The notes under the pieces: generated by a model
Databases searched by the model: none
What the model saw: the letters and a program-made list of their open reading frames with translations, nothing else
What the model was told of the DNA's origin: nothing
Shown here: piece by piece, positions 2,049-44,752 of the stretch
Layout: each line of letters opens with the position of its first letter
Numbering within the stretch: the stretch's first letter is position 1
Assembly: GCF_003171515.1 (NCBI RefSeq)
Contig: NC_089392.1
Coordinates: forward strand, 2,790,001 to 2,854,000
Length of the DNA: 64,000 nt
Reading direction: 5' to 3'
DNA from: Pyrenophora tritici-repentis
Lineage: Eukaryota; Ascomycota; Dothideomycetes; Pleosporales; Pleosporaceae
Translations under genes and position numbers: made by a program

Positions 2049-2736
2049 CAGTAGCCGTGGATTCAAGCCACGCTGGAAGAAGAAGTGCTTTGTCTGCCAG
2101 AAGGAAGGATGCTGGTCCACAAACCACACAGACGAAGAGCGCAAGACTGCCCGTGCGCAGTTCTTCTCTATGCTGTATTTTACAGGTGCGCCACCACCCA
2201 AGGACTTCTCAGTACACCTTGCAGAGTACGAAGGAATTGAGCACACCAGCCAGTATAACCAGAGAGGCTGGAAAGAGGAGGAAGACTGCGAGGATGACGA
2301 CAATGACGACGGCACTGGCGAACAACAATACTTTGAGCAGCAGTTCTTCAAGGAGCAATGCCTTGCAGACCAGGCGTTCTTGCATCACATTTCTGGCGAC
2401 GACATATACGGTCGAGGCGCGCCGTCAGCACCAGCGTCGCAGTTTCTGCTCGAGGACCGCTATACACGATCTCTGTACCAAGGTATCCTCCCGGATACAG
2501 GCGCTGCCAACGTATCTACAGTTGGCAAAGAGCAGTATCTTGCACTCACACGAGAAGATCCAACAGTTAAGATAGACACATCTACAGCTGGGAAAGCATC
2601 TATCAAATTCGGAAAAGGCGAGGCTACAGCGTCTATTGGAACAGTGCAGGTCTCTACAGAGATTGGAAGATCAACTTCGAAGTGCTCGAGGCGCCTACAC
2701 CGTTCTTGCTGTGCCTTGCAGATATGGACCGCTTAA
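1978..2736 (+). CDS. Copia zinc knuckle and aspartic protease, in the +1 frame
   Basis: This frame overlaps the gag end by about 70 bp. It encodes a Cys/His cluster (C-x2-C-x4-C-x4-H, near 2085-2130) in a Lys-rich context. An aspartic protease signature follows, with Asp-Thr-Gly at 2494-2502 preceded by hydrophobic residues. It has no plausible start of its own, so it must be reached by frameshifting from gag or be separated by mutation. The frame loses its family-like sequence near 2665 and stops at 2736; the protease C-terminal sequence continues in the frame of the downstream pol region. That is the pattern expected from one lost base in a short A run (GGAAG at 2665-2669). Confidence 0.8.
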   Translation: MEETEVGPEAELEAHFKKGEQSFDSSRGFKPRWKKKCFVCQKEGCWSTNHTDEERKTARAQFFSMLYFTGAPPPKDFSVHLAEYEGIEHTSQYNQRGWKEEEDCEDDDNDDGTGEQQYFEQQFFKEQCLADQAFLHHISGDDIYGRGAPSAPASQFLLEDRYTRSLYQGILPDTGAANVSTVGKEQYLALTREDPTVKIDTSTAGKASIKFGKGEATASIGTVQVSTEIGRSTSKCSRRLHRSCCALQIWTA

Positions 2737-5600
2737 AAGTCTACTTCAATAACACTACAGATGAGCTTGTTCAGGACAAGATACGCATCCCTGTTCTACG
2801 CAAATGGGGACACCCATGGTTCCATCTCAACAAGAGAGAGAGAGCAACGGTGTTTCTCACTGAGACAGAGCTGAGACGGCTCCATCGCCGGTTTGGACAC
2901 CCAGCTGTCACGCGACTAGTTAAACTCTTAAAGGACGCTGGCCATAACGACTTTGAAGAGAGAACCCTAGAGGAGGTCACTGAATTCTGCCACCACTGCC
3001 AGCTCCACAGCTCCGCGCCGCGCCGATTCAAATTCACTCTGAAGGATGATCACCACTTCAACTATGAGATCCTGGTGGATGTGATGTATCTCAGCGGCAA
3101 GCCAGTATTACATGTGGTTGATTCTTCAACTGCTTTCCAAGGCGCAAAATTCCTCAGCGCTATCTCAGCTAAGGAGACATGGCAGGCACTGCGGATGCTA
3201 TGGATCGACACGTATCAAGGACCACCAGACATCATCACACATGATGCAGGCACCAACTTTGCAAGCGCAGAGTTCCGTGCTGAGGCAAAGATCATGGGAG
3301 TTACATGCAAGCAGGTGCCTACAGAGGCTCACTGGTCGGTGGGCAAGACTGAGAGATACCACGCACCACTTCGCCGAGCATGGGATATACTCCATGACGA
3401 GCTCCAAGACGATATGTCTGATGAAGCGATCCTTCAAATGGCCGTGAAAGCTGTCAATGACACCGCTGGACCCGATGGTCTAGTCCCGACTCTACTAGTC
3501 TTTGGAGCATACCCACGAATGACTACAGAGTCGCCGCCGGCACCTTCAATGGTTAGGCGCAGCGAGGCTATTCAAAAGGCGACGAAAGCCCTGCGCAAGC
3601 TTACTGCAGAGCGCCAAGTTGCAGACGCCTTGAACACCCGCAATGGACCAGCCACTGCAGACATGCTCGCGCTCCCACTCCAGAGTGAAGTCTTAGTATG
3701 GAGAGAGAGTGATGGCTGGAATGGCCCGTACAAGATCGCCAGTATAGACGGCCACAACGTTACTGTCGATATGGTCAATGGTCCAACAACATTCAGATCT
3801 ACTGTCGTCAAGCCATACTACAGACCGGACCATCTTTGGAGCGACCCCGATGCGCCACACGCGCTGAATGAGCCGCATGAGCCGGTAGCAGTACCACCGG
3901 CAGTGCAACCACGCAAGAGAGGCCGCCCTCCAGGATCAAAGAACAAGCGGAAGGGGCACGCGTACATCACCAAGAAGGAGCAGGACGATCTTGAGCTAGC
4001 TATCAAGCTACGTAACGATGGAGTTATCACAACACCAGGCGCACCCTTTGAAGCATCTGATGACCAAGAGATCAGCGACCTCGTAGGTCGTGGAGTCTTC
4101 AAGTTTGAGCAATACGACGAGAGGCTACACAGCAAGATCCGGATCTTCAAGTCACGCCTGGTACGTGAGGTCAAGGGAAAGACAACCAAGCCCTATGAGA
4201 AATCCCGCCTGGTTATCCAAGGCTACCAGGACCACGGCAAAGAGGCTATCTTGACGCAATCTCCAACCATCCAGCGATGCAGCCAGCGCCTGATCATGTC
4301 GCTGGCGCCCGAGATGGTACAACGCGGAATGAACATAGAGCTCCGTGATATCACGCAGGCGTATCCCCAGGCGCAGACAACCCTGAAGAGGACGATACTC
4401 GCACATCTTCCTACTGAGCTGGTACCACGATATCCGAGGGGCACGCTACTCCATGTGATCAAGCCACTGTATGGAATCGCAGAGGCAGGAGTCCACTGGT
4501 GGACAACCTATCATGGGCACCATTGCAAGGAACTGGACATGGCAACATCTACGTACGACCCATGCCTGTTAATCACAAACAGCGACACCAGCATCTTCGG
4601 CATCGTTGGCATGCAAACAGATGACACTCTCATGCTTGGGACACCCGCGTTCTCGTTACTTGAAGAGAAAAAGATCCAGAAGGCAGAGTTTAGATCGAAA
4701 CCAAAGTCTGTCCTTACACCAGAAATTCAATTGGATTTTAATGGATGTACACTCACGATCGACGCTAGCAAACCAATTCTGAACCTTAGGCAGAAAGGAC
4801 AAGGAGGAAAGATCAAACTTGTGGACGTTAGGGCACCCGACCGCGCGCAACAGTACACAGAGCAGCGCGCCCGCGGAGCGTACATCGCATCAACATGCCA
4901 ACCAGAGGCGTCATTCGATCTGTCCGTCGCCGCTCAGGCGCAGCAACCATCAGATGAGGACATCAAGGCACTCAACAAGCGCCTGAAGTGGCAGATAGAG
5001 AACCTCGATCGTGGCCTCCGTTACATCACTGTCAATCTCACGGAGGCTAAGTTGATGGTCTTCGTAGACGGCTCCTTTGCCAACAACAAGGACCTCAGCT
5101 CACAGCTCGGCTTTGTCCTCATGCTCGTCAACGAGTCTATTGACGCTAACACCTTCACAATCCAAGGCAACATAATCCACTACAGCTCTACAAAATGTAA
5201 GCGCGTCACAAGGAGCGTACTAGCCTCTGAGATTTATGGCATGGTCAACGGCTTTGATATAGGCATCGCTATTGCCACTACCTTAAGAATAGTCACAGAA
5301 CGACTTAGAATACCTGAGGTTCCCTTGGTTGTCTGTACAGACTCGTACTCCTTGTACGAGTGCCTCGTTAAGCTTGGAACAACGAAGGAGAAGCGTCTTA
5401 TGATCGACATCATGGCGCTGCGTCAATCATATGAGCGTCGCGAGATCACTGAGATCCGCTGGATCAATGGTGACGATAATCCTGCTGACGCCTTCACGAA
5501 GGCATCGCCAAACCGCGCTCTTGAACGCTTTATTGACGGCAACAAGCTGACAGTCCGAGTAGATGGATGGGTGCAGAGGCCGACAAGCTTTGATGTTTGA
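2682..5600 (+). CDS. Copia Pol: integrase, reverse transcriptase, RNase H
   Basis: This 972-codon frame has no ATG near its beginning and is open upstream, so it is the distal part of a polyprotein. Numbering from 2682: a gag-pre-integrase HHCC zinc site (H68, H73, C103, C106), and an integrase core with D133, D188 and E224 (D-x35-E). An AT-hook-like basic stretch with GRPPGSK follows, then the reverse transcriptase with Thr-Asp-Asp at 4617-4625 as the catalytic pair, and RNase H with Val-Asp-Gly-Ser near 5060. The Thr before the Asp pair departs from the Tyr-x-Asp-Asp usual in reverse transcriptases; I have the impression, not checked, that some fungal copia elements share it. There is no internal stop, so pol itself is intact. 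Confidence 0.93.
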   Translation: MLEAPTPFLLCLADMDRLKVYFNNTTDELVQDKIRIPVLRKWGHPWFHLNKRERATVFLTETELRRLHRRFGHPAVTRLVKLLKDAGHNDFEERTLEEVTEFCHHCQLHSSAPRRFKFTLKDDHHFNYEILVDVMYLSGKPVLHVVDSSTAFQGAKFLSAISAKETWQALRMLWIDTYQGPPDIITHDAGTNFASAEFRAEAKIMGVTCKQVPTEAHWSVGKTERYHAPLRRAWDILHDELQDDMSDEAILQMAVKAVNDTAGPDGLVPTLLVFGAYPRMTTESPPAPSMVRRSEAIQKATKALRKLTAERQVADALNTRNGPATADMLALPLQSEVLVWRESDGWNGPYKIASIDGHNVTVDMVNGPTTFRSTVVKPYYRPDHLWSDPDAPHALNEPHEPVAVPPAVQPRKRGRPPGSKNKRKGHAYITKKEQDDLELAIKLRNDGVITTPGAPFEASDDQEISDLVGRGVFKFEQYDERLHSKIRIFKSRLVREVKGKTTKPYEKSRLVIQGYQDHGKEAILTQSPTIQRCSQRLIMSLAPEMVQRGMNIELRDITQAYPQAQTTLKRTILAHLPTELVPRYPRGTLLHVIKPLYGIAEAGVHWWTTYHGHHCKELDMATSTYDPCLLITNSDTSIFGIVGMQTDDTLMLGTPAFSLLEEKKIQKAEFRSKPKSVLTPEIQLDFNGCTLTIDASKPILNLRQKGQGGKIKLVDVRAPDRAQQYTEQRARGAYIASTCQPEASFDLSVAAQAQQPSDEDIKALNKRLKWQIENLDRGLRYITVNLTEAKLMVFVDGSFANNKDLSSQLGFVLMLVNESIDANTFTIQGNIIHYSSTKCKRVTRSVLASEIYGMVNGFDIGIAIATTLRIVTERLRIPEVPLVVCTDSYSLYECLVKLGTTKEKRLMIDIMALRQSYERREITEIRWINGDDNPADAFTKASPNRALERFIDGNKLTVRVDGWVQRPTSFDV

Positions 5601-21737: not shown

Positions 21738-24700
21738 CTAATGAGCACACCTGAGATCAATCAAGCTAGCTTGATAGCTTGATTGGAAGATTGATGCCAA
21801 GCCAATTCAATCAATCCAGCCAAACCTCATACAAAAACGCAATCAATCCAGCTGAGCTTTTCCGTGAGCTTGATTCAGATTGATAGCTTGATTGCCTTAA
21901 GTATATAGTAGATTTCGGTGATGAGGCAGCCCATGAGGCAGCTTAGATAGCTGTAAAAGCTCTATACTGAGCTTTTTTTGGTGTTTTAGTTACGCCGTGT
22001 AACATTGAGTAATATCCGATAGCTCCGTGTAACTAGCAGCCAGCGCGTCGTCTCATATAGTATACTCCATCTCCATCTCCATCACCCACAATACTATATA
22101 CTTTTGGTGTTGCAGATCTATCGCCGTATACCTCACCTCATCGTCGCCCTCATGCCGCCCAAAAAACGCGTCTCTGATAGCGCTCCCTCGCCTAGAAAGC
22201 GCGCGCGCGGCACTGCGAGCCAGCCCGTCGCGATCGACTCGCAGTCATATCAATCTCAGCCATCTGCTCTATCTCCGCCGCCTCCATATACACATACTTT
22301 CGAGTCGCGATTGCGCGAGTCGCAGCCCGAAGACGCTATCGTCGCGCCCGCCGAGGGCAGTGAGCAAGCTACGCTCGCTCCGTCTTCTGAAGCCGCCGAC
22401 GACGCTGTAGATGAGGCTTTTGACGCCCATCTCGAAGACAATTATGATGGCATAGATTGGGGTCGCCTTAAGCTGTATACGAAGCCTATCACGACGCACC
22501 AACACAAGCGGAGTTGGATCTATCGCCACGGCTATCGCGTCGCTCTTCTCAAAGATCCAACCCGCGTATTCTTCATCTGCCACTGGTGTTTCAAGCACAA
22601 GCTCACGGATATTGGTATTGGGATATACAATACAAGCGCAGCAGTCTCGTCAGCCGCGCGCCACCTCAGCGAGCAGAAACCTGGCCATAGGCTAGTAGCA
22701 CCAGGCAAGACTCCAGTTGCTAGTGTTTACAACGCGCTCACCACTGCGAGAGTCCCTATCTCACAGGCAGTAGCTAATCAGATTAACGGGTTTAGCAAGC
22801 AGCGCTTTAGGTTTGCCGCAGTAGACTGGCTCGTCGCGAACAACCACCCCATCTCTGAGTTCGAAACACCAGCTTTTCGACGCCTAATTGCTATCGCCAA
22901 CCCACTTGCAGAAGCAGCGCTCTGGAAGAACCACAAGAGCGTCTCCCAATACGTCATACGACTGTTTGACTGGCTCAGGCCCCGCGTTGTCCACGAGCTG
23001 TCACAATCGCTTAGCAAGATCCATATAAGCTTTGACGGATGGACAACGAAAGGCGGCAAGCGCGGGTTTCTCGGTATCGTCGCCCACTACGTCAACTCAG
23101 ATGGCAAGCTCCGAGACCTGCCTATCGCGCTGCCTCAGCTCACAGGCGCTCACTCCGGCGATCGATTAGCTGAGGTTGTATTATCAATCTTAGAGCAGTT
23201 TAGCATAAGCGAGCGCACACTCGGTTACTTCGTCCTCGACAATGCCTCTAATAACGACACCGCTGTCGCTGCGATTGCCCACGAGCTTAACTTCAATCCT
23301 ATACACCGACGCCTCCGCTGTGGCCCTCATACGATCAATCTGATTGGGCAGAGACTGCTCTGGGGCAGAGATGCAGACTCATACAACAACGAGGGAGTTG
23401 ACGAGCTCGCCGACGAGGCAGCGTTTATAAAGGAGTGGCGAAAGCACGGGCCTTTAGGCGTACTTCTCGATATTGTCAACTATATCCACACACCGCAGCA
23501 GTACAATCTTTTTGAGAAGGCGCAGCGTACAGCTTACCGTGAGCTACCTCACGACGCAGACGACAAGCTCACGATACTACAGCCAATCAAGCCAGTAGTC
23601 ACACGCTGGAACTCATACTTCGACTGTTTTGAGCGAGCTATAAAGCTCGCGCCGGCCATCAACGCGTACGCGAACACCCACATACAAAATACAGCAAAAG
23701 AGGATATCTACGCCGACTCACAGGGCAAAAATCGGCCTGCTGCTCCACAGTGGATGAGATCAGACGGCCTCACAGCTGCCGATTGGGCTGTTGTTACCGA
23801 CTATATAGAGGTTCTTAGGCCACTTAAAGAGTGTACAAAGCGCTTTGAGGGACGTGGCGAGTATAGCTTTGGCGCGATCGCTGAGGTGATCCCAACGTTT
23901 GAGTTTCTACTCACTCAATTAGAAGCTCGCCTCCTCTACTACGATTGCGTAGTCCATGACGCTCACGACGAGGCACCCGAAGATCACCTTCCTATTAATC
24001 TACGCGCAGCGCTACTTAAGGCGAACGAGTACTACGCTAAACTCGACGACTCGCCAGCTTACTACGCTGCTACAATACTCCATCCTCGCTACAAACACTA
24101 CTGCGATCAAGCGTGGGCTGAGAAGCCTGACTGGCTGGCGCTTAATAATCTTAATTTCCAGGCACTGTGGGCGGATTACAAGTCGCTGCCGTTACCGAGG
24201 CCTTGCTACACACGCGCACCGAAGAAACCGAGCAATATTGACGACGCGATTGACGGCATTATTGATCCCACACGCGGCAATACTAAGGAGGATGAGTATG
24301 AGCAGTGGAAGCGCGAGCCAATCGTTGGCAAGGGCACCGATCCTATACAATACTGGTTCGGGCTGCGCGATCAATATCCCAACCTTAGTAAGATGGCGCT
24401 TACTATACTCTCTATACCCGCTTCAAGCTGTGAGTGTGAGCGCGTCTTCAGTGAGCTCGGAGATCTACTAGAGCCTCGCCGACGCTGTATATCACCTGAG
24501 CTACTAGCAGCACTACACTCAGTACGACGATGGAGACGGGCAGGTTTTGGTGGCGGCGACAACGACGATATGGGCCAATCAAAGCTTACCGACGAGCAGA
24601 TGGACGTTTTGTACGAGCTTAGCAAGTGGGTGGGCGAAGACGACGATCTAGATACATGGGACGACGGCTGAGACTCAACACCAAAAAATATATACAACTT

Positions 24701-25758: not shown

Positions 25759-27616
25759 TAACATGATCCATGGGCGAGCGGCGCACACGGGCGAGCGGCG
25801 CACCCCACCAACTTTTGCAACTTTAAAGCGATGCATCTCAACAACGCGATAATATTATTGCTAGATATTGATACAGTAGATTACTCTATATTAATAGTAT
25901 CAGTCTTGCATGTGCGCGAGTTGTGCCCAGTCTCCTTGCACCTAGTGCAGCGCCTTTGAGCCCGCTGGCTGAGGCCTGATCGCGCTCCTCCTTGACGCTC
26001 TTCATGAGCAATCTGCTGGTCAGCCTCATTTTGAGCCAGTATATCCTCTCCAGCTCCCTTTGTGAGTACTCCATGCTTCTGTATACGCCTTTTAGAGCGC
26101 CGCCTACGCTCTGAGGCTGCGCTATTGGCCTTCTCAAGACTAGAGATCCGATCGCGCATCAGCTCAGCAGAGAGCATCATCACCTCGGCGCCCTTCTTTA
26201 GCTGGTCAATCGCCATAATAATTGAAGCTGGTGATGAGCTCTTGTGCTGGCGCACGCGCTCACGTATTAGGCTTGACTGAGCCTCAAGCTCACGCGCGTT
26301 GCTCGGCGTTTGAGCTACCCAGGGAGCCTCTGGCAGAGCTGCTGGAGGAGTAGGTGTACGCAGTTGTACATCTACCTTTGATAGAACAGCCTCTGGTTGT
26401 AGAGGAACAAGGCCTGCGCCGCGGAAGGCTGAGCAGATATTGGCTGGCGTGAACGCTTGATCAAATGCTGCCTTGAACGCTGGCAGAAACTCTAGCTTGG
26501 TGATGTGGTTGATGTGGTTGCGCATAAGGCTCTCCACCTCACGGCTGTACGCGCGCTTCAATGGCGAGAAGCAGCCAACATCAAGTGGCTGGAGTAGGTG
26601 AGATGAGTGAGGAGGCATACAGAGCGTATGGATATTGTTCTCCTTGCAGAGCTCCTGGAACTCTAGAGATTGGTGGCTCTTATGGCCATCAATAATAAGC
26701 AGGCGACGCGCGCCTACACTACGAGCCTGCGTGTGAGCGTTGAAGTGCTTTAGCCACTCAACTCCAAGCTCATTATTCGTCCAGCCATTATCGCTGACTG
26801 CGATCGCCCAGTCGCGTGGGATCTCAGCTTCCTTATACCAGGCTGATAGGTAGTACTGGCCAGCGAAGATGAGGAACGGTGGGACTGACCAGCCAGCAGC
26901 GCTGATAGCAGCGATCAGCGTTACCCACTCGCGATTGCCTGGCTGAATACTCTTCGGCCTGCCTCTCCTCTCTGCTCCTGTTATAACTAGCTGCGTTGTA
27001 ATCTTGCCCATCATAAAGCCAGCTTCATCAAAGTTGTAGACGTCCTCATCGCAGATACCTAGCTCAGCCTTTGTCTCTTCTACAAGCTTAAACCACCTCT
27101 TTATTAATGTTGCATCCTCACAAAGAGCTCTCTGCCTATCGTACGCTTGGTTGAAACACGTCCGAAGACTGTCTGTACGCTTAACAAAGGTAGATGGCCA
27201 GTTGACTCCAACCTGCTCTCCACCACGCGCAGCCAGCAGCTTATCAGCCATATCACGTACAGCTGTGTAGGTAGGCGCAAATCCACGCAGATCTAGCTGA
27301 AGTATATAGCTAATAATCACCTCCTCTTCTCTCTGGGTAAGCTTCCTTGAGTTGGGCGGGCAATCGCGTCGGGCAGGTATACCAGCGCGTCGGCGGCGGA
27401 GCGTTGTTTCGGCTACGTTGTAGACTACTGCAGCAGTACGGGTACCTTGGATCTGGTGCGCATTAATAGATGAGATAGCAAGCTGAATATCTGCTTCATT
27501 TGATAGTAATTGAGTAGCGCTGCGTTGAGCCATTGTAGATTAAGATCAGTAAGGTGAGTAAAGTTGGTGGGGTGCGCCGCTCGCCCGTGTGCGCCGCTCG
27601 CCCATGGATCATGTTA
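25759..27616 (-). mobile_element. Intact pogo/Fot1-like transposon nested in the hAT
   Basis: The element is 25761-27614 (1854 bp). Its 54-bp terminal inverted repeats (25761-25814 and 27561-27614) start ACATGATCCATGGGCGAGCG. Flanking TA dinucleotides at 25759-25760 and 27615-27616 are the TA duplication typical of Tc1/mariner-pogo elements. Inside each repeat the unit GGGCGAGCGGCGCAC is present twice in tandem. One long transposase frame on the minus strand fills the element. Confidence 0.96.
25881..27533 (-). CDS. Pogo-like DDE transposase with C-terminal zinc knuckle
   Basis: Intronless, 550 aa from ATG 27533. The N-terminal helix-turn-helix (psq-like) is at about residues 12-50, and a CENP-B-type second DNA-binding region at about 65-130. 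The catalytic triad is D169 (Y-N-F-D-E-A-G), D282 (I-I-D-G-H) and D318 (L-Q-P-L-D-V), giving D-x35-D. The C-terminal part is a Lys/Arg/Glu-rich helix, then a CCHC zinc knuckle C-x2-C-x4-H-x4-C close to the end. It is complete and, with perfect ends, the element could be mobile. The start lies 28 bp inside the right terminal repeat, divergent from the hAT transposase. Confidence 0.95.
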
Positions 27617-27631
27617 GCATCTATTATCGTT

Positions 27632-29993
27632 ATGTCATCGAATACCTTGTCAGCAAGTGCGATATCAACGCCACCGTCGCGAAGACCCGCAACGCCGCCA
27701 CACTTTGACGCTGTTATACGAACCGAAACTGTCTGTAACACCAGCAATGCAAAGCGCCAGCGTTTGAAAAAGCAGTATGTGTGCAAACGCTGTCGCTCAT
27801 GGTTTAGCAGTCACCGAGTAAACTCTATCCACCATGTTCTAGCATATCATACAACGTCAGAGTCTTCTCAGCCCTCGCAAACTTCTTCTTCGTCGTCGCA
27901 ACCAGCTATCACTTCAGTGTTTAGGACTGTCTCTGATCAGACAATTATCCGCAACGCCTTCAATGAACAAGGGTATCGCGATGCGCTTGTCGGTCTTCTG
28001 ACTCGACGTCGAATAGCCTTTTCATCAATCGAATGGTCTGAAATGAGGGATCTAGCGCTTGCTTGCAATCCATTTATTGAAGACCAGCTTATCACAAGTC
28101 GACGTACAGCCGTACGTCTTATCGCCTCGAATTATCAGCTTTATAAAGGCCATGTAATTAAAGGCAGCTTATCGACGGCTGTGAGTCCTATCCACATATC
28201 AACAGATCTCTGGACATCACCGTTCCGTTCATCTCTCCTTGCTGTATGCGCACAGTGGGTCGATCACGAATATAAGCTTCAGAAGGCTCTTTTAGGACTG
28301 CCAGAATGTCGTTACAGCCACTCTGGAGAACAGCAAGCACACTTACTTCTTCAAACCCTCGAGGAATATGGGATACAGTCTAGAGTTGGCTGGCATACGG
28401 GTGATAACGCAACATCTAACGATACCTGTTTGGAGCATCTTGAAACCCTCCTTCGAACTAAGCACAACGTAAGCATGGCTTTTAATATAAAAATCGGCCT
28501 TCGCTGCTTAAGTTACGCGATGGTGCTAATATTAACAAGGTTAAATTTACTGCTAAAGAGCGCCGTATCCGATGTATCGGTCATATTATCAATTTATCCT
28601 TGCAGGCATTCCTGCTTGCATCCTCTAAGGAGGCTCTTACCGCTGCTCTCGACGCCGTAACGGATGTTATGGGGGAAGAGCTTCTCGCAGAGTTTTCAAG
28701 CGTTCTTACTTCTCGACAGAGAAACCCTAGAGCCCAAGCCCAAGCTGTTCCACAAACCTCACAGAGACAAAGGTTGTCTCGCCGAAGACGCAGCGTTGAT
28801 AGCCATGGGTCTGTTGATGAGGACTTTTGTGGTATTGAGAACATCTCTACACTACGCAAATTACATCAACTATGTGTCTGGCTGCGCAACTCAAGTATAC
28901 ATGCAGCAGAGTGGGATCGCAAGGTAGGCCTCCGCTTAGGGATTGACAATCAGACTCGGTGGTCTTCATGGTACTCAGTTATGGATCGGGCTATTAAGAA
29001 GATGGCTGCAATTAAGGTCTTTATGCACGATAACGAGAAACACCTTAACGAGATCCGTCTTACTTCTGACGACTGGGATATACTACAAAAAGCACATACA
29101 TTTTTACAACCATTTGCATCAGCAACGCTATACGCGGAGGGAGATAAATCGTCTATCTCTCAATCTCTTTTGATTATGGACTCTCTTTTAGTCCACTATG
29201 AGCAGCAAAAGGTAAGCATTAACGTGTTATCCGAACTTTAAGTCTTCGGTTAACAGCTTTATAGATACATTACTCTAAAGATGAAAATGAGGACCTTCGC
29301 ATGGTTCGATCGATCGAGATGGGCTGGTTCGTACTTGAGAAGTACTACAACATGACTGATCAGGTTCCGGTGTACGCTTCCGCTATTCTTCTAAATCCCG
29401 CAAGTAGAGCAGCATATCTCAAGAAGAACTGGCCAGCCGAATGGTACGAACCAGCTATTAACGCTGCTCAAAACTTTTGGGTGAATGAGTTTAAGGACGC
29501 TTTGCCTTTAGCTAGCCCTACAGCTTCTCAACAAATGGCTCCTCCTTTAAAGCAACGCGGTGCCGTTCTCGATCAGATTCTACAACAGATGTCAGTTGCG
29601 GCGGCAGATCAATCAAACAGCGACGATCTTAAAATTTTCGCAGAAAGTCCAGTAATACAAATCGACTGTAGCCCTCTTGAATGGTGGTGCCGATCGGAGC
29701 AACGGCAGCGCTACCCTAGGCTAAGCAACATGGCTATCTCTATTCTTTCTATCGCTGCAGAGTCGTCCGAGCCAGAGAGAACATTCTCAGGTGCAAGAAG
29801 AACCTGTTCATGGGATCGGTCGAGGCTCACTTGCGACAACATTGAGAAGATCGAGTGCATTGGCAGTTGGCTTAGGGAAGGCCACATAAAACCGTGTTCT
29901 CTCAACGGAATGGGTCTACCAATGGAACCAGAGCAAGATGACGAAGCAGAGATGATAAGGGATGAGGTAGAGGAGATTCTAGAATGGACATAA
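27632..29993 (+). CDS. hAT transposase (second element), two introns
   Basis: Exons 27632-28468, 28540-29211 and 29265-29993, all in phase 0, give 745 aa; the introns are 71 and 53 bp with GTAAGC donors. A Ser/Thr-rich N-terminus is followed by a BED-like zinc finger (C-x2-C near 27783, His-x4-His near 27830-27845). The core has Asp in T-D-L-W-T near 28202 and G-D-N-A-T-S-N-D near 28403. The C-terminal dimerisation block carries S-S-E-P-E-R-T-F-S near 29763. The nested element ends 17 bp before this ATG, and an in-frame ATG at 27611 lies partly inside it. The frame is intact. An alternative is loss of expression through the insertion. Confidence 0.9.
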
Positions 29994-30242: not shown

Positions 30243-31529
30243 AGACTTTCTTTTGGCGGGATGAATCGAACGAAGCATTGGCTGTTTCCTTTTTTAGAGA
30301 TCCACCCACACGATCTGAAGAACGCAGCACGGTCGATGACACAGCCAAGCCTTTCCCGGATTTGACAAATAGCCTTTTTTGTAACGACAATGAAGCGGAT
30401 GAACGAAGTTGTGTTGCGGCTAAGGCGACAAAAGCTATAATTGATTGTAAACAGTAAAATGTGTTTTGCATGAGAACGTGGTTGACACGTTAACTTAGTG
30501 TCTCTTCCTAATGTCGCGTCTCTCGTACGAATCCCATAGCCGTAACAGATCCACAAAGCTCAACCGACGAAAAGACCGAGAAAATTTGCTATCCCGTATA
30601 GCGATATTATTGTCGCTGTTTCAGTGCATTTTCGAGTGATTCTGAGATAGATTTGCTGTGTTCAGAATATTATTCGTGGTTTGCGGACATGCGCAAATAT
30701 ATGACAAATTGTGTCAATAATACAGGCAAAAGAAAGAAAGCTCCCAAGATGACGAGTAACGACATAATTCGTCTACCGGCGTCTTCTTGACTCACTGACA
30801 CAAAACATCGCACAACGCCAGTTCGAGCAAACCCCACATACTTCTACTTAGTGCACCTTTATCCCTCTTCTCCACAGCTGGCTGTGGAGATGTAACTAAG
30901 AACTAAAGAGAGATCTAGAAGATCTATAATAATTACAGGACCAGATTATACACAATCTCTTGAAAGAGTACTTAATCTTTGTTTAGCAATTAGTGAAATT
31001 CAAATGCCGGATTCAACGACATAAGTTTTTTAGGGCACAACGAAGAAACAGATAGAGTACTTCCACCAAAGAGTTTCTAGATGCTCTAGGAGCTCAACCT
31101 CGTAGACTGATAAATGAAACGATGTGCACTTATGAGTCAGAGAAGATTAAAAGCAAGTAGGTGATAATTTATATACGTGCTACAGCGTGTATATAGAGGC
31201 GTAAATATAAAGAAAGAAGTTATCAAAGTTCTATCGTCGCAAAAGACTCGGCCACGTCGTTTCTCGTGAACCGGATAAAATACATCAAAACATCACAAGC
31301 ATTAGTCAAATGAAGATGGTGCTTACAGTAAACTTCTTGCAAAAGTACTTCTATTTCTATTTCTATCTTTAAATCAAGTATCTTGCCAACTAGCCCAGGA
31401 GATCCAATCGACAATGGTGCTCTACCGTAAAGTCGTGGTTTGTTGAGATAGGTAATAATGGAAAGATGCTTGTAGTTCGCCCGAGTGGAAATGAGTGGAC
31501 ACACTCGTGCTTTACATGGTTGATAATAC
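30243..31529. other. AT-rich intergenic, no gene recognised
   Basis: About 1.3 kb. A minus-strand frame at 30227-30556 reads through a tRNA-like relic rather than a gene. The remainder is AT-rich, without long frames. Confidence 0.45.
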
Positions 31530-33401
31530 CTATGCGTGTCCAGCGGCGGCAGAGCCGGCATTCTCAGCTCCAGCATCTGCATTCGCGGCTCCACCCTTTC
31601 CCATTCCACCTTGTGCACCACCGGCTGCTGCAGCTCCACTGTTAGCTGCACCAGAGTCAGCAGCGCCTCCAGCATCTCCTCCAGCAGCGCCTCCAGCGGC
31701 GGCACCACCTTCTGCACCAGCACCGGCTCCAGCTCCAGCTCCATTGTTCTTGCCCTTACCAGCTCCCTTGCCAGCTGCATTAGGAGCGCCAGCGTCGGCA
31801 GCGCCTCCAGCATCTCCCCCAGCGGCGGCGCCAGCTTCGGCACCGGCACCAGCAGCAGCCCCGTTGTTCTTGCCCTTTCCAGCCCCTTTGCCAGCTGCAT
31901 TAGCAGCGCCTCCAGCAGCGTCGGCACCGCCAGCTCCAGCTTCGGCTCCAGCTTCGGCACCACCAGCAGCAGCTCCGTTGTTTTTGCCCTTGCCAGCTTC
32001 TTTGCCAGCTGCATTAGCAGCACCAGCGTCGGCACCGCCAGCACCAGCGTCGGCACCGCCAGCTCCAGCTTCGGCACCGCCAGCAGCAGCTCCATTGTTT
32101 TTGCCCTTGCCAGCTCCTTTGCCAGCTGCGTTAGCAGCATCTCCAGCTCCAGCTCCAGCTCCACCAGCAGCTGCTCCGTTGTCTTTGCCCTTGCCCTTGC
32201 CTGCAGCAGCTCCGCCCATGGCAGCATCTCCGGCTCCAGCTTCAGCTCCACCAGCAGCGGCATTTCCGGCTCCAGCTCCAGCTCCACCAGCAGCGGCTCC
32301 GTTGTTTTTGCCCTTGCCCTTGCCTGCAGCAGCTCCGCCCATGGCAGCATCTCCGGCTCCAGCTTCAGCTCCACCAGCAGTGGCATTTCCGGCTCCAGCT
32401 CCAGCTCCACCAGCAGCGGCTCCGTTGTTTTTGCCCTTGCCCTTGCCTGCAGCAGCTCCGCCCATGGCAGCATCTCCGGCTCCAGCTTCAGCTCCACCAG
32501 CAGCGGCATTTCCGGCTCCAGCCCCAGCTTCGGCTCCAGCTCCGCCAGCAGCGGCTCCGCCCATGGCAGGTGCAGTGGCGTTAGCAGCACCAGCAGCGGC
32601 ATCTCCGGCTCCAGCCCCAGCTTCGGCACCGCCAGCAGCAGCTCCGTTGTTCTTGCCCTTGCCCTTGCCCTTGCCCATAGCAGCTCCGCCCATGGCAGCA
32701 TCTCCGGCTCCAGCTTCAGCTCCACCAGCAGCGGCATTTCCGGCTCCAGCCCCAGCTTCGGCTCCAGCTCCGCCAGCAGCGGCTCCGCCCATGGCAGGTG
32801 CAGTGGCATTGGCAGTTCCAGCATTGTTGGCTGCATTATTGGCGGCTCCCTCATTGTTTGCACCTCCAGCGTTGGCAGCTCCGCCATTCGCCTTTTCACC
32901 CTTCTGAGCGCCGGCGGCGGCGGCAGCGCCGTTGGCAGCTCCAGCATTGCCGTTGGCGTTGGCAGCCTCTCCAGCGGCTGCAGCACCACCGGCGGCGGCG
33001 GCATCACCACCAGCAGCACCAGCAGCACCTCCGGCAGCAGCGTCGCAAGCAGCTATGTCTGTGTTAGTTCAAATCGCAGTGAATGATGTTGGTATCAACT
33101 TACTCTTCTGTGCTGTGCACTGATCCACTGTCAATGTCGCATCACCACCATTTGCCGCGTTGGAGCAGCCATTGAACTGTTGATCACAGCTCCTCGCTAC
33201 CGCAGCAGCCTCCTTCACAAATGTGTCACCCTTGACTTCAAAGCCACGGGTAGCATCGCCAGTGGCAGTGACGGGGGTGGCTGCGATACCGCCAAGAGCA
33301 CCTGTGAAAGTTTGGACGTTACCACCAGCCTGACGACGATAGACAGCCGGCGCGCTGAAAGCGGAGCCAATAAGGGAAGCGGTGATCAGGGAGTATCTCA
33401 T
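31530..33401 (-). CDS. Secreted protein: Cys domain followed by long Gly/Ala-rich repeats
   Basis: Exon 1 is 33401-33104 and exon 2 is 33052-31530, with a 51-bp intron; the joined frame is 606 aa. A signal peptide (residues 1-16, ending SAFSAP) and a dibasic Arg-Arg at about 22-23 precede a domain of about 75 residues with C-x6-C ... C ... C spacing. From about residue 103 it is almost wholly Gly, Ala, Glu, Asn and Asp with repeated GKGKGKNNGAAAGG blocks. Three copies of a 123-bp (41-aa) unit start at 32176, 32299 and 32422 and are nearly identical, so they arose recently. Such proteins are usually cell-wall or matrix components; no enzyme function is visible. The antisense frame of 470 codons is a shadow of the repeat composition. 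Confidence 0.85.
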
Positions 33402-36887: not shown

Positions 36888-39800
36888 ATGGCCACTCTCG
36901 AGACGCTACAGCGAGCGCTACTCAAGTCAGCAAGCGAATTCACACCGGCAGACTCCCCTAGACAAGCTTTATCGGACGAGCAGTATGCCACCGGCTTCTC
37001 CGTCTTCTCCCAAGAGCCCGGGCGCTCAACATACAGCGAATTCATCATACCCGAGCTATCCTACCTCCTAGCGCCTCTCCATGATACTGAACCCGAAACA
37101 CGCATCTCGGTGCTGGAGATAGGACCGGGCCCAAAAAGTGTTTTTGGTGATCTTCCTCAGAGCTTGCGACGCAAGATCGAAACCTATACTGCTTTCGAGC
37201 CCAATGCGGTCTTTGCGATACAGCTGGAAGATTGGCTCAAGGGTAGTGGTGGGATCGAAAACAAAGCTCCACTTCCCGGTCTCAAACGGGTTGCTGTCCA
37301 TCCTGTTGAGTTTTCCGATGTTAGCGATACAGAGAAAGACTATCGGCTCAAAAAGTATGACATTGTTCTGTTTTGCCACAGCATGTACGGCATGAAACCG
37401 AAGAACAGTTTCATTGGAAGCGCTCTGGGGATGCTTGTTGAAGGGGGGATAGTAGCGGTTTTTCATCGGGATGGCGCCCTACATATCGAGGGCTTAGTAT
37501 GCCATTACACGGTTTCATTCCCTACTGGAGTTGTCGGCGTTCCAGACCGATACAAAGACTTGAACCAGTTCGCGTCTTTCGTGGCTGGGTTCGGCATGCA
37601 AGACGAGATGGCGAATACCGCAGTTCAAGCGCAGTGGAGAGCACTATGCCGTTCGATGGGTCGTCGGGACGGAGCATACCCAGAGTACCTTATTTTCAGC
37701 GCACCCGAGGTCATGACAGTATTTAATGAACACGCCGACAGTTTGCCAGAGTTGATGTGGCAAGTACCGCAAGGTCGGAAGATAGTCAAGAACAAAGAGG
37801 CTTGTCTGCACAGTCCGGCTTATGTTGCTCGACCAAGGGATGTCAAAGACGTTCAAATTTGCGTTCGGTGGGCGCTACAATATAACGTCGGCTTGACCGT
37901 TATCGGGGGAGGCCATAGCACGCACTGTCTCAGGCCTAACGTTGTGGCGATCGATATGAGCGGTTTCGACTCGGTACACATCCTGAGAGCCGTTGGAGAC
38001 GAAGGCAAGCCAGATCCTATCTCTAATTCATTCGTCATCGCAGGGACTGGGTGCAAGACTGATGGTCTCATAAGCCAAGCCATGTGCGAAGGTTTGACAG
38101 TGCCTCTGGGATCGCGCCCAAGCGTCGGTGCAGGTTTATGGCTACAAGGAGGCATAGGACACCTTACCAGGCTCCATGGACTAACTTGCGACATCATCGT
38201 CGGTGCTGTCATGGTCAGCGTTAAATCTGGCGAAGTCTTCTATATTGGTAATGTGCCAGAACAACATCGGCCACCTGGCGCCTTTCTTCCCACGGACGAA
38301 GCCGATATCCTTTGGGCGATAAGAGGTGCTGGAACAAACATGGGGATCGTGACGAGCGTTACGTTCAAGGCTTTCCCTGCTCTACAATACCTGACAAGGA
38401 ACTGGGTGCTACCACTCAACGATGAGATCGACGCACGGAAACGACTCAATCAGTTCGACAAAATAATCGCTGGACGACTGGGGCGATCTGAACGCCACTG
38501 TTCAGCAGATGCGTATCTGTACCATGAGGCTGGTCAATTGAGACTTGGAATGACCACATTCGAGCTAGTGGAGCCTTCTTTCAATGTTTCAGCTATCAGA
38601 CATGAACCCATGGGAGAAATCTGGGGGCCGGTGACGGAGTCTAAAGTCGTTGATGGTTTGGAATTGTTCGAGGAAGAGATGTACATGTCTGGGATGCATG
38701 GCGGGCATGGTGGCGGCAAGACTTCTTCGTTCAAACGTTGCATACTCATGAAGGATATCTCGGAAGAGGGCATTGCTGCCCGCTTGATATCTGCTGTGGA
38801 AACTCGTCCGTCGCCGCTATGTTACCTCCACTTACTACATGGAGGTGGAGCGGTTCGCGATCTCGCAGCCACTGCTGTTGCCTTTGGATGTCGCACGTGG
38901 AGTTTCGCATGCGTCATCACCGGCGTTTGGCCACGCGATGAAGATGGCACTGCACTTGCTAACGCTTGTGTGCAGTGGGTATACGATCTTGCAAAGGACT
39001 TGTTGCCCTTCAGCAGCGGAGCTTACGGAGTTGATCTCGGACCGGATCCCAGAGATGCCGAACTCGCGGTCAGAGCCTTCGGACCAAACGGATCGCGACT
39101 AGGTCGTCTGAAACGTGATATGGATCCGCATGGGATGCTAGCGTATGCCTGTCCGTTACCTAAAGCACCACCACCCAAGCTTGTCGTCCTTGTCACTGGC
39201 GAGAGTTGCGCTGGAAAAGACCACTGCGCACATATATGGGCCTCCCTGTTCTTGCAACACCGGAACAATACGGAGTTCTCTGCCCAAGGCCCGAATTCGC
39301 GCGTTATGAGCATCAGTGATGCCACGAAGCGTGAGTATGCAGCGGCTGTTGGGGCTGATTTCGATCGCCTGCTGGAAGATCGTGCCTACAAGGAAGAGCA
39401 CCGCGCACCATTGACAGAATTCTTTCAGCAACAGGTGCAGAAACGACCTCAACTACCCGAAGAGCATTTCTCGAGCACCGTACGCGATGCCACAGCCGCA
39501 GATGTTGATGTGCTGTTCATTACGGGTATGAGAGACAAGGCACCTGTCGCATCCTTTGCTCACCTGGTGCCCGAGAGCAGACTGGTTGAGATTCGTGTAG
39601 AAGCCAAGGAGCACACGAGAATTGAACGTGGAGCGGATACCAGCAAGTCCAGTATGAAGGAGCTGGAGCATCGGCCTAGCCTGATCTTCCAGAACGACAA
39701 GTCTGCAAATGAGCCTGCCGAAAGCTTCGCCAGATCCAATCTCATACCTTTGATTCACGATGACTTGCAGCAACTTGCAGACATGGTACGCTCAATACCC

Positions 39801-40343
39801 AGCTTCCCAACCCCAGGTATCGAGTTTCGCCACGTGCTTGACATCGCTCAGCAGCAGGGTGGGATGCGTCGATGTGTATCCTTATTGCAGACTCTGTTTT
39901 CTGGTAATTGGGACAAAGTCAAAGCCATCGTGAGCGTCGGAGTAGGTAGCCTCGTCTTTGCGTCTTCTTTGACCGAACGGGTTGACAAGCCTCTCGTTCT
40001 GGTTCGCGAAGAAGGGAAGCTTCCACCACCGACCATATATACGTGCAAGCCACGATCTCACATCTCTTTTGTGTCGTCTTCGAAGCAGAAGGTTACGCGT
40101 ATCGAGATGGAGCGAGACGCCGTCCCCGTTGGCGCATCTGTTGTCGTGGTGGACGATGTACTAGCAACAGGTGAGACGCTTTGCGCGGTGTTGCAATTAT
40201 TGGTTAAAGCCGGCGTTGCTCTTGAGGATGTTAGTGTGATGGTCGTTGCGGAGTTCCCGGTTCATCGCGGTCGCGCGTTACTGTATGAGCGCGGATATGG
40301 TAAGGTGAATGTGCAGAGTCTATTGGTGTTTAACGGAGTCTAG
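36888..40343 (+). CDS. Four-part fusion enzyme: methyltransferase-like, FAD oxidase, P-loop kinase, phosphoribosyltransferase
   Basis: One exon, 1151 codons, ATG 36888 in the context CCATAATGG. Residues about 45-275 form a Rossmann methyltransferase-like region with VLEIGPGPKSV (75-85). Residues about 305-755 are a berberine-bridge/PCMH-type FAD oxidase: IGGGHSTHC with the usual flavin-linking His at H343, P-S-V-G-A-G ... G-G-x-G-H-L-T-R (411-428), and a typical C-terminal L-K-R-D-M-D-P segment. The second flavin-linking Cys position appears to be Arg409. Residues about 764-965 form a P-loop kinase with TGESCAGKD (770-778) and a body like animal-type phosphomevalonate kinase. Residues about 968-1151 are APRT-like, with a PRPP loop VVVVDDVLATGET (1085-1097). 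No signal peptide or membrane segment, so it is probably cytosolic. The pathway is unknown; modified purine or nucleotide-like metabolites would use all four activities. Confidence 0.88.
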   Translation: MATLETLQRALLKSASEFTPADSPRQALSDEQYATGFSVFSQEPGRSTYSEFIIPELSYLLAPLHDTEPETRISVLEIGPGPKSVFGDLPQSLRRKIETYTAFEPNAVFAIQLEDWLKGSGGIENKAPLPGLKRVAVHPVEFSDVSDTEKDYRLKKYDIVLFCHSMYGMKPKNSFIGSALGMLVEGGIVAVFHRDGALHIEGLVCHYTVSFPTGVVGVPDRYKDLNQFASFVAGFGMQDEMANTAVQAQWRALCRSMGRRDGAYPEYLIFSAPEVMTVFNEHADSLPELMWQVPQGRKIVKNKEACLHSPAYVARPRDVKDVQICVRWALQYNVGLTVIGGGHSTHCLRPNVVAIDMSGFDSVHILRAVGDEGKPDPISNSFVIAGTGCKTDGLISQAMCEGLTVPLGSRPSVGAGLWLQGGIGHLTRLHGLTCDIIVGAVMVSVKSGEVFYIGNVPEQHRPPGAFLPTDEADILWAIRGAGTNMGIVTSVTFKAFPALQYLTRNWVLPLNDEIDARKRLNQFDKIIAGRLGRSERHCSADAYLYHEAGQLRLGMTTFELVEPSFNVSAIRHEPMGEIWGPVTESKVVDGLELFEEEMYMSGMHGGHGGGKTSSFKRCILMKDISEEGIAARLISAVETRPSPLCYLHLLHGGGAVRDLAATAVAFGCRTWSFACVITGVWPRDEDGTALANACVQWVYDLAKDLLPFSSGAYGVDLGPDPRDAELAVRAFGPNGSRLGRLKRDMDPHGMLAYACPLPKAPPPKLVVLVTGESCAGKDHCAHIWASLFLQHRNNTEFSAQGPNSRVMSISDATKREYAAAVGADFDRLLEDRAYKEEHRAPLTEFFQQQVQKRPQLPEEHFSSTVRDATAADVDVLFITGMRDKAPVASFAHLVPESRLVEIRVEAKEHTRIERGADTSKSSMKELEHRPSLIFQNDKSANEPAESFARSNLIPLIHDDLQQLADMVRSIPSFPTPGIEFRHVLDIAQQQGGMRRCVSLLQTLFSGNWDKVKAIVSVGVGSLVFASSLTERVDKPLVLVREEGKLPPPTIYTCKPRSHISFVSSSKQKVTRIEMERDAVPVGASVVVVDDVLATGETLCAVLQLLVKAGVALEDVSVMVVAEFPVHRGRALLYERGYGKVNVQSLLVFNGV

Positions 40344-40900
40344 GTGGTTAGCTGGACAGCTACATCACTAGATCAGCGAGAAGAGCTTCTTAAATAGAGT
40401 TCCGGTCGCAAAGTACCTCTATCAGAGGTTTGGGTGGTCTGAGACTTGGCAACGTGATGGAAGGCGCGGCGGGAAACACGGGCCATGCCATGACATCATC
40501 GTAGATTTCCAGGCGCAGATGAGGCTATCTAAGAATTAAAGAATCGAGAATATCGAGAATTGAATGACTAGTTCAAATCCACTAATCTGGCTTGGATGTT
40601 TAGCCTATCTCGTGCTGTGGACTAGTCACTTGGTTCTGATGACGATTTCCAACTGTACCTAGGAGATGTAAGTGCTCTTTAGGTGGAATATGTAGTTAGA
40701 CTTGGGCATAAATACACTCGCACTGTCATTGGGGAACGTGCGACTGTGATTGGTTCCAAGTGGTTCGCTCATGTTGTGAATTGGTACTAGAAGACCTCGG
40801 TTTCATCTACAGTCTACGTAAAAGTCATGACATGTACTTTCCAAGATTTCCGGCAATGGAAGACATTTTACTCTCAACCACCAAGCGAGCCTGTCTTGGC
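40344..40900. other. Intergenic between convergent genes
   Basis: About 560 bp shared by the 3' ends of the fusion gene and the secreted-protein gene. Nothing recognised. Confidence 0.5.
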
Positions 40901-42070
40901 TTACTGCACAGGTGGGCAGTTTAGATCAGGGCTGTTGTTGTCAGAACCGGGATCGCAGCCATTCGGCCACTGCGGACGCTGACAGCCAGAGCCTTCATAC
41001 CACTGCTCCCGGATCTTCAAGCTCTGTTTGAAGCAAGGAGAATCGGCACAGAAGGTAAACGGAAGAATCTTGTCCTTGGGCCATGACATTGTATCAGCGA
41101 GGCTGTCCCGATTCTCTCCCCACATCAGAGCGTCGATGGCGTTTTGAGTGGTTTCGCAATGAAAGCTGTTGTGTGGGGTTTTCTTTTCCCAAGTGAGCTC
41201 GACGTTGAGAACACCAATAATTGGACCGCCATTTGTTGCAAAAGCTAGTTCCAATTTGCTAGCGACGTAGCAGATCATGGTGCGTCTAGTGCCCGGGAAG
41301 TCCCAGTATGCGCAGTTGTTGTTGTCGTCTGCCATTGTCTGATAGATCTTTGCGACCATTCGGAACTTTAGGACGTCAGTCACTGCCGTTGATATGTGAA
41401 TACGTCTGCACTTACTGCGAGATCCTGAATGCCCGGGTAATCTTGGTTGTTAAAATACGAATAGTGCACGGTGAGACTCGTCTTTGAATCCGCCTTGTAC
41501 GTTGAGTGACCGTTACTGTAGACGACGTTGTAGAGGTTGCATTGCTCTTTGCATTCGGGTCGAGTAGTCTCGCAGTAGCCCGGGATAGAAATGCCTTTCT
41601 TTGCTATGCAGCAGTCCTTCAGCATACTGTAGATCCGGTTGTAGAGTCGCTTTCCACGGAAAGTCCCAATGTGGGTGGGGTTTCGGCCGATACGCAAATC
41701 GACGGCGTATCGGCCCTCCATGTTCGGAACCGGTCCATCGTCCCCGTCGTTGTTGGCGAAGCCTCCTTCTGGCGTACTCGCGTTTGAGTATAGACCCACC
41801 GACCAAGTCACGTTCTCACCGGTCTTGACTGCGAGTTCAGCAAGCAGGTCCTCACCACTGACGTACTTGTTATCAGAGCCCAATCCCAGTTGCGGATTGG
41901 ATGTCACTGGCCTAGATCAGTAACGTGATTGCTTGCTTAATTGCCCAAAGTCACTTACCAACGGGGCTGGTATCAATCGTCGCAAAAGGTGGGGAGAGTG
42001 CGGAGGGCGTGGAAGCGGAGAGGGCAAGAGCCGACAGTAGGGCTATCAAGAAGAAGAAGGCGCACTTCAT
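40901..42070 (-). CDS. Secreted cysteine-containing protein, function unknown
   Basis: Three exons, 42070-41959, 41906-41416 and 41365-40901, join in frame to 355 aa; the introns are 52 and 50 bp (donors GTAAGT). The first exon is a clear signal peptide (MKC then FFFLIALLSALAL). The mature protein has about a dozen cysteines, including a Cys-Cys pair and a C-x3-C in the middle, several Trp/Tyr, and a Pro/Cys-rich C-terminus. The composition suggests a disulfide-stabilised extracellular protein or enzyme. I recognise no catalytic motif. The joins were chosen because they alone keep the frame without stops: acceptors GCCAG at 41907 and AAAG at 41366. Confidence 0.75.
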
Positions 42071-42745: not shown

Positions 42746-42751
42746 AGATCA

Positions 42752-44523
42752 GTAAGCTGGGCACCCTACCGAACCTGACCTGACGCTCTACGCAATTGAG
42801 CCACAACAACGCAATAATATTAGATAAAATTAAGAGATGTAATTAATTATCTAGCTATGCATGAAGTTAGAGTATGCCCTTGAACGTGGCACTTCGTGCA
42901 CGTCGGCGGCGCGCGCTGACGTCGCTCACCAGTCTGGTTCTGGTTACCCCCCATAACTACCCTTTCTGCCTCTGTAGCTATCTGCTAAGCCTGTTAGACC
43001 TAGAGCACTCTACTAGAAGCAATATATTGACGCTGTTGCTCCTAATTTTGTCGTTGGCGCTGATTATCTGCACGTAGCTTTTTGTTCTCCTCTGCAAGAA
43101 TTACTGCTAATTACATTGCAAGCTAAGCGCTTTTAGCAAGCTGGCGTATCGCAACGCTTATTAGGCTCTCTGATTTCCGGCGTAGCCGCTCTTAGAGATA
43201 GCGCACCTGCTGCCGAAGCTCTGCTACTGTATGTGTTGTCTCTATCTGCGCTGCAGCGTTATTATCTATAGTTGTCTGTGGCGGAGACGGTGTCCTGGCT
43301 ACTGTAAGTGACGACAGGATGCGATCGGGACAAGGAAGGACAAGGCCTGTTGCTTGGAAGCCTACCTAGATGTTCTGCTGCGTAAAAACCATTAGCCGGA
43401 TCTGTTGATAGACTGTAAGGAAGTCTATCTTGTCAATGTGGTAAACGCCTTAGCAGGCGAGCTTCTCAATTTCACGTCCGTACGCCCGCTTGAGCGGCGA
43501 GAAGCAGCTAACATCAAGCGGCTAGAGAAGATGCGACGTGTAAGGCGGCATACAGAGAGTAATAATCTTGTTCTTAGCGCAGTAATAGTCGAACTCTGGC
43601 GTAGCGTAGCTACTGTGGCCGTCTAGGACAAGGAGACAGTATACCCTAGCTGTACGAGCCGCTGTATAGTAATTAAAGTGCTTCACCTACTCTACGCTAA
43701 GCTAATTAGTTGTCTAGCCGCTGTCTAAGACGCTAATAGCCTAGTCTAGTAAGAGCCTATTATACTAGCTGCTTTGGTGGACCTTGCTAGACAGGATCAC
43801 TAACGGTGGCAGACACCAGCCAGACGCGTTAACGCACTCGATCGCTGTAACCCACTCGCGATTGCCTAGCTGTACGACAACTGCTCGGCCGACTCTGTTA
43901 GAGCTTGTGACTACCTTAGACATGCCAGCGACGCCTATCGCGAACCTAGTCTCGTCAAAGTTGTAGATATCTTGGTCTAGGACGCCGTACGTCTGGCGCG
44001 TCTCTTCTACTAGCTTAAACCAGGCTGCAATTGCAGTAGGGTCCTTATAGTCAGCCCGCTAACTATTAAATCTCCTGATCTACTTTGTCTAAAGCTCTGG
44101 GTAGCTCTAGACAAAGCGCGACACCTACTTCTTGCTAATAGGTTGTGGAGGTGGATCTTGGCCGCGCGCAGTGAGTAGAGCGTCTGCCATTCGTCGTACG
44201 TTAATGATATGAGGCGGAAAACCGCGTTAATTAAGGTCTAGGGTCCACTATACGAGAGACTGCCATTCAATAGGCGATAGCTTGCGGTTGACAGAGACTG
44301 TCTCTGATCGTGGCTGGACACCATGGATATGCGTGTGTAGTGTAGATTGTGGTATATCAAAAGCTTTCGCGAGAGCACGAATAGACTGTTTTGGATTATT
44401 ATGATAAGAAGCTATAGCAAGGCTTATTCTGCCTTCACGAGAAGTCTGTATAGAGCGTTGTTGTCGCGGCATTGTGGTGGTTGTGTAGAGTGTCGGGTCA
44501 GGTTGGGTGGGGTGCCCAGCTTA
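42752..44523 (-). mobile_element. RIP-damaged pogo/Fot1-like relic
   Basis: The inverted ends are AGCTGGGCACCC... (from 42754) and its complement ending at 44521, flanked by TA at 42752-42753 and 44522-44523; the symmetry extends outwards to GATCAG/CTGATC. The size (1768 bp) and the inner sequence match the intact element at 25761. For example, both contain ACCCACTCGCGATTGCCT with the same surroundings. Where they differ, CCAG/TGG in the intact copy is often CTAG/TAG here, the CpA-to-TpA change of repeat-induced point mutation. The reading frame is full of stops. Confidence 0.85.
44248..44472 (-). pseudogene. N-terminal transposase remnant of the pogo-like relic
   Basis: Seventy-four codons from ATG 44472, with a recognisable psq-type helix-turn-helix (S-I-R-A-L-A-K-A-F-D-I-P-x-S-T-L). 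Beyond this the frame is destroyed by stops and shifts across 42840-44250. Confidence 0.8.
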
Positions 44524-44752
44524 CTGATCCCGCACGTTAACTACGTTAGTTAGCCTCGGTACGAAGCCAACCGTGCTCATCATCTTCCCGTTGACAAGCT
44601 GCAGGTCGCCAATCGCGTTTCCCAACATGCGGTTATCGTCTGCTATACCCGTCTGGTCTTCTATATCCGGCGGGGAAGCCGTGACAAAGTAATGTGCGTG
44701 TATGCGCATATGTCCAGCTCCCTACCATGTACAACCAACCCCAGTACTTACC

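Follow-up and report, generated by a model that had tools for sequence, protein, structure and literature searches.

A conserved four-domain fusion gene of fungi that may encode a multifunctional enzyme for a small N-heterocyclic substrate

What would a filamentous fungus do with a single protein that joins a methyltransferase, a flavin oxidase, a kinase and a phosphoribosyltransferase (PRTase)? The gene that raises this question sits on contig 3 of the 40.9-Mb genome of Pyrenophora tritici-repentis, in what we call the window, the whole 64-kb stretch of DNA that was analysed. Its frame is open throughout on the plus strand (36888-40343; 1151 codons, ATG to TAG), and the product differs by one residue from the Pyrenophora tritici-repentis database entry P0002. 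The chain of four blocks, in the order in which the first-pass annotation had read them, was borne out in this one frame. A search of the whole genome found one full-length copy, along with six partial matches to the protein (one APRT-like and five oxidase pieces).

The rarity that the annotation had implied was overstated, since the fusion is a widespread, conserved family occurring in many moulds and lichens. Searching for the same architecture in other proteomes, as had been proposed there, we scored 7991 candidates and obtained 1040 matches; the 120 of these that are listed align over 96-100% of the query at 56-100% identity, and the three Pfam domains are present in them. By source name the family rows include Dothideomycetes, Lecanoromycetes, Leotiomycetes and Geoglossomycetes (at least one species each looked up), and also Sordariomycetes and Eurotiomycetes. 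Separately, a piece of the fusion protein is deposited under a Sphingomonadales bacterium MAG (P0344), probably from a mixed assembly. Conservation was measured on 120 rows of 1100-1260 aa, comprising the window protein, a near-identical entry and 118 others, with P0108 (1404 aa) excluded; means over 50-residue blocks range from 0.75 to 0.92 along the chain, the single last residue aside. The features of the gene are as follows, with residue counts referring to these 120 rows.

36888..40343, plus strand: four-enzyme fusion gene, intronless and single, 1151 aa plus stop
36888..37757, plus strand: class I SAM methyltransferase with a histamine N-methyltransferase (HNMT)-like fold, residues 1-290
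37110..37142, plus strand: SAM motif I, VLEIGPGPKSV, residues 75-85
37758..39173, plus strand: FAD-linked oxidase of the BBE/EncM/6-hydroxy-D-nicotine oxidase (6-HDNO) type, residues 291-762
37902..37928, plus strand: flavin-site motif IGGGHSTHC with His343 (120/120), the presumed histidyl-FAD link
39174..39755, plus strand: P-loop kinase, animal-type phosphomevalonate kinase (PMK) family, residues 763-956 (PF04275, 72.6 bits, cut-off 33.8)
39195..39221, plus strand: P-loop TGESCAGKD, residues 770-778 (G776, K777 and D778, 120/120)
39756..40340, plus strand: APRT-like phosphoribosyltransferase, residues 957-1151 (PF00156, 51.3 bits; 1ore, E 5.6e-19; APRT fold, TMt 0.90)
40140..40178, plus strand: PRPP loop VVVVDDVLATGET, residues 1085-1097

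The cofactor signatures (SAM, flavin-His, P-loop and PRPP) are nearly invariant across the 120 rows, which supports the view that these are real enzymes. In the methyltransferase domain, a Rossmann-like fold is combined with the acidic, glycine-rich motif I (E77, G79 and G81, each 120/120) and an acidic end of strand 2 (E104 in 120/120), as in class I SAM methyltransferases; a PDB sequence search with this domain alone returned one row, at E 1. The oxidase has the FAD_binding_4 domain, the flavin-linking His and the BBE-like fold of BBE/PCMH-type enzymes; 21 of 40 members match the BBE Pfam family as well, and the window protein does not. H343 lines up with the GGH of 6-HDNO and EncM, families with a covalent histidyl-flavin link, which is presumed to hold for this residue too. 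Across residues 400-425, presumably the place of the second flavin link in bicovalent members, Cys occurs in at most 3 of the 120 rows at any position, so that a second, cysteinyl link is not indicated. Structure comparison found EncM to be the closest fold to the oxidase domain; EncM is a polyketide enzyme, not a purine enzyme.

How far the other two domains resemble their namesakes was judged from ten members aligned with human PMK and APRT. The kinase falls within the animal-type PMK family by its PF04275 score and its P-loop, and a PDB sequence search with the kinase alone gave a weak match to phosphomevalonate kinase (3ch4, E 0.11), followed by eight rows at E 1.1-1.2. R110 of human PMK is kept as R882 in all 120 rows. 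R111 aligns with an acidic residue at position 883 (Asp in 117, Glu in 3), which breaks the R110/R111 pair that we take as a family mark; a literature search on the role of these arginines returned nothing useful. In the window protein, R18 and R93 are replaced by Ser and R84 by Val, the placement of R84 being uncertain, as an Arg conserved in 113 of 120 rows (R853) lies three residues beyond it. The PRTase domain shares with APRT the type I PRTase fold and the PRPP loop (D1090, G1095 and T1097 in 120/120; D1089 in 118, with Glu in the other 2), and its TIGR01090 score of 74.8 bits lies far under the APRT equivalog cut-off of 185.85. The Glu-Tyr pair of the catalytic loop is missing. Human E104 corresponds to S1057 (120/120), Y105 to residue 1058 (88 His, 31 Tyr, 1 Asn) and R67 to residue 1020 (119 Gly, 1 Ser); we assume the roles usually given to these APRT and PMK residues, including E104/Y105 as the catalytic pair. 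With E104, Y105 and R67 replaced, adenine may not be the base. The earlier labels, phosphomevalonate-kinase-like and APRT, need care, since residues on the substrate side are replaced: they denote resemblance, not substrate use.

The genome has other matches for both housekeeping functions, namely an APRT match at C3:1917854 (147.6 bits, 126/169 positions) and an ERG8 match at C1:1952146-1953908 (257.7 and 62.3 bits), all of them below curated cut-offs, which exon-by-exon scoring need not reach. ERG8 belongs to a different kinase family from PF04275, for which the fusion gene is the sole match in the genome. The fusion gene is therefore not the housekeeping copy, and its identity as housekeeping APRT or PMK was rejected.

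The surroundings give no help on function. Of 81 frames (at least 120 aa) we scanned 20 against Pfam, and these showed transposons and genes without a link to the fusion; spliced or small genes would escape such a scan. Thirteen of the 20 matched: transposases, a reverse transcriptase, a ZIP transporter, IBR, a class II aldolase, a weak F-box, GH20, two DNA polymerase delta pieces, GNAT and an amidohydrolase. The other seven had no Pfam match, no biosynthetic cluster was seen among the scanned frames, and models of anti-phage defence gave no match. Upstream of the gene lie hAT transposase frames (22023-24668 and 29265-29990) and a DDE_1 transposase (25884-27539, minus strand); a reverse transcriptase frame (RVT_2) is found at 2571-5597. 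A GC-rich tandem repeat array at 31226-33083, with units of 123, 117, 84 and 36 nt among others, holds long open frames in several phases on both strands. Directly downstream, two minus-strand frames (40901-41907) are without a Pfam match, and the region 40350-41950 has no second DNA match in the genome. Between the fusion gene and the class II aldolase gene, two inverted arms at 42747-44529, each 49 nt long, are 90% complementary and separated by 1.7 kb; they look like a terminal-inverted-repeat element.

Does the chain divide anywhere? We picked 13 pairs of database entries in which it is split and whose contigs are equal in length, a non-exhaustive survey that takes equal length to mean that both members of a pair lie on one contig. 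In 3 of the 13, the N-terminal part ends at 757-761 and the C-terminal part starts at 764, at the border between oxidase and kinase. These are Endocarpon, where the two halves are numbered consecutively (loci GJ744_006071 and GJ744_006070), Polyplosphaeria, whose N-terminal entry holds the oxidase alone, and a single contig from a metagenome. For the other 10 pairs, the two ends do not both fall at the border, perhaps owing to introns, frameshifts or partial models; among them, a Diaporthe pair has consecutive numbers, yet is parted at 696/710. Two Fusarium oxysporum entries align only as far as 757, many database entries are without one half of the chain, and P0177, P0212 and P0230 pass from the family N-terminus straight to the kinase, a pattern in which a deletion and a mis-called intron look the same. 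The split forms whose halves meet at 757-764 support a chain of two modules, one of methyltransferase and oxidase, the other of kinase and PRTase. On a 47-row tree with many weak branches, the kinase-PRTase-only label needs 10 changes against a shuffle mean of 15.4 and is thus more clustered; one clade of three rows, Venturia and two from metagenomes, is starred. Since some half-only entries form a small clade of their own, the halves may also work alone. The idea that kinase-PRTase-only proteins are one older clade found no support on the same tree (0% of 200 bootstrap trees).

We put at about even odds (a probability near 0.5) the reading that the gene encodes a multifunctional enzyme whose two modules together run a short pathway acting on a small, purine-like N-heterocycle. 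The methyltransferase and flavin oxidase module would prepare or modify the heterocycle by methylation and oxidation, the APRT-like domain would place a phosphoribosyl group on it, and the P-loop kinase would phosphorylate the phosphoribosylated product; we infer the substrate, the sequence of steps and the activity of every one of the four domains, whereas the order of the domains, their folds, the conserved cofactor motifs and a border between modules come from the data. In favour of this pathway, the nearest relatives of three of the domains act on N-heterocycles: histamine (by fold), 6-hydroxynicotine (by sequence) and adenine. The cofactor motifs kept in all four domains, the single full-length copy and the separate APRT and ERG8 matches also count for it. 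Moreover, the persistence of the fusion, together with split halves that are neighbours, makes a pathway to one metabolite more plausible. Against it stand the replacement of APRT E104, Y105 and R67, the absence of PMK R18, R84, R93 and R111 at the aligned positions, the EncM-like oxidase fold and the many entries without one half. The four-step route to a single metabolite that the first-pass annotation had suggested is therefore plausible, with the fusion persisting and the cofactor motifs kept, but its chemistry is still conjectural.

The same replaced residues (APRT E104, Y105 and R67, and PMK R111) would also fit a protein of which only part is catalytic, for instance with the methyltransferase-FAD module acting on an unrelated small molecule and the kinase-PRTase half turned into a regulator or a sensor of nucleotides. 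A regulatory role is possible for PRTase folds, and the pur operon repressor is among the weaker matches. However, K777, D778, D1089, D1090, G1095 and T1097 are kept in 118-120 of 120 rows, and conservation is even along the chain, where we infer that a regulator would show less evenness; we regard this alternative as possible, if rather unlikely. It is doubtful that the protein instead serves salvage or detoxification, with the oxidase and methyltransferase stripping or capping an N-modified purine (e.g. a cytokinin-like one) and the PRTase and kinase returning the base to the nucleotide pool. APRT is a salvage fold, and the FAD_binding_4 domain also occurs in cytokinin dehydrogenases; against this, the genome has the separate APRT match, the catalytic Glu and Tyr are replaced, and the cytokinin-binding Pfam family is absent among the 7 families matched by 40 members. 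Identity as a cytokinin dehydrogenase found no supporting family among these. That two or more adjoining genes were taken as one frame, as separate entries for the two halves in some fungi might suggest, is practically excluded and, on the homologs, is counted as refuted, given an open frame of 1165 codons, where 100 simulations of a 64-kb window produced none longer than 275, and an identical domain order in 120 rows.

How did the gene reach so many fungi? Among 25 chosen named rows, with the fusion protein alone compared and the class of six species looked up, identity between classes (up to 91%) exceeds that within genera (67-85%). Three Pyrenophora species are 73-85% identical to one another and three Alternaria species 67-72%, whereas Lepraria (Lecanoromycete) is 91% identical to Trichoglossum (Geoglossomycete) and 87% identical to Glonium (Dothideomycetes). 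This comparison hints at horizontal spread. On a tree of 36 named rows, with classes assigned in the same way, the six classes jointly need 7 changes (minimum 5, shuffled mean 18.6), so the tree mostly follows class, and Sordariomycetes form one clade. In tests run after the tree had been seen, a single clade was rejected for 12 Lecanoromycetes (p 9.6e-6) and weakly for 14 Dothideomycetes (p 0.039), and holding ten Pleosporales rows together was not rejected (p 0.36); Pleosporaceae copies may therefore simply evolve fast. Several of the records from lichens and Geoglossomycetes carry the source label of a metagenome assembly, and the pattern may be explained by transfer, by duplication, by uneven rates or by contamination of lichen assemblies. 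The copies of three Xylographa species (P0042, P0062 and P0120) fall in different parts of the tree, one of them with two Dothideomycetes (99/96 support). We consider unlikely the reading in which this one gene supplies all four enzymes of a pathway to a nucleoside or nucleotide natural product not yet described, and moves by horizontal transfer among filamentous fungi and lichens of different classes as an intronless unit that needs no other genes. The odd divergence makes it a candidate for gene transfer between fungi that can be checked in existing genomes. Should the pathway reading be true, expressing the protein in a single experiment could bring to light fungal nucleoside chemistry that is new, and the chain could be cut where the split forms divide.

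Each domain is of a known kind, and for all four on one chain we could find no described function. Our open-access literature search gave no relevant paper on the four-domain architecture, in agreement with the earlier statement that no characterised pathway uses all four, and the database names of homologs each describe a single domain. Compared with HNMT, the methyltransferase domain is alike in fold at 14-15% identity and is here joined to three further enzymes. The oxidase domain has in common with 6-HDNO, EncM and BBE enzymes, which are usually single-enzyme proteins, the FAD domain, the invariant His343 and the whole fold; bicovalent BBE members have a second, cysteinyl flavin link, whereas no Cys is kept here at residues 400-425. 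APRT and the PRTase domain share the fold, the PRPP loop and the FPxPGIxFR stretch, with the LEYG loop of APRT replaced and longer here. Animal PMK and the kinase domain have the P-loop GxxxxGKD in common, and K22, D23, S44, K48, K69, R73, R110, R130, R138 and R141 of the human enzyme are identical at the aligned positions of the window protein.
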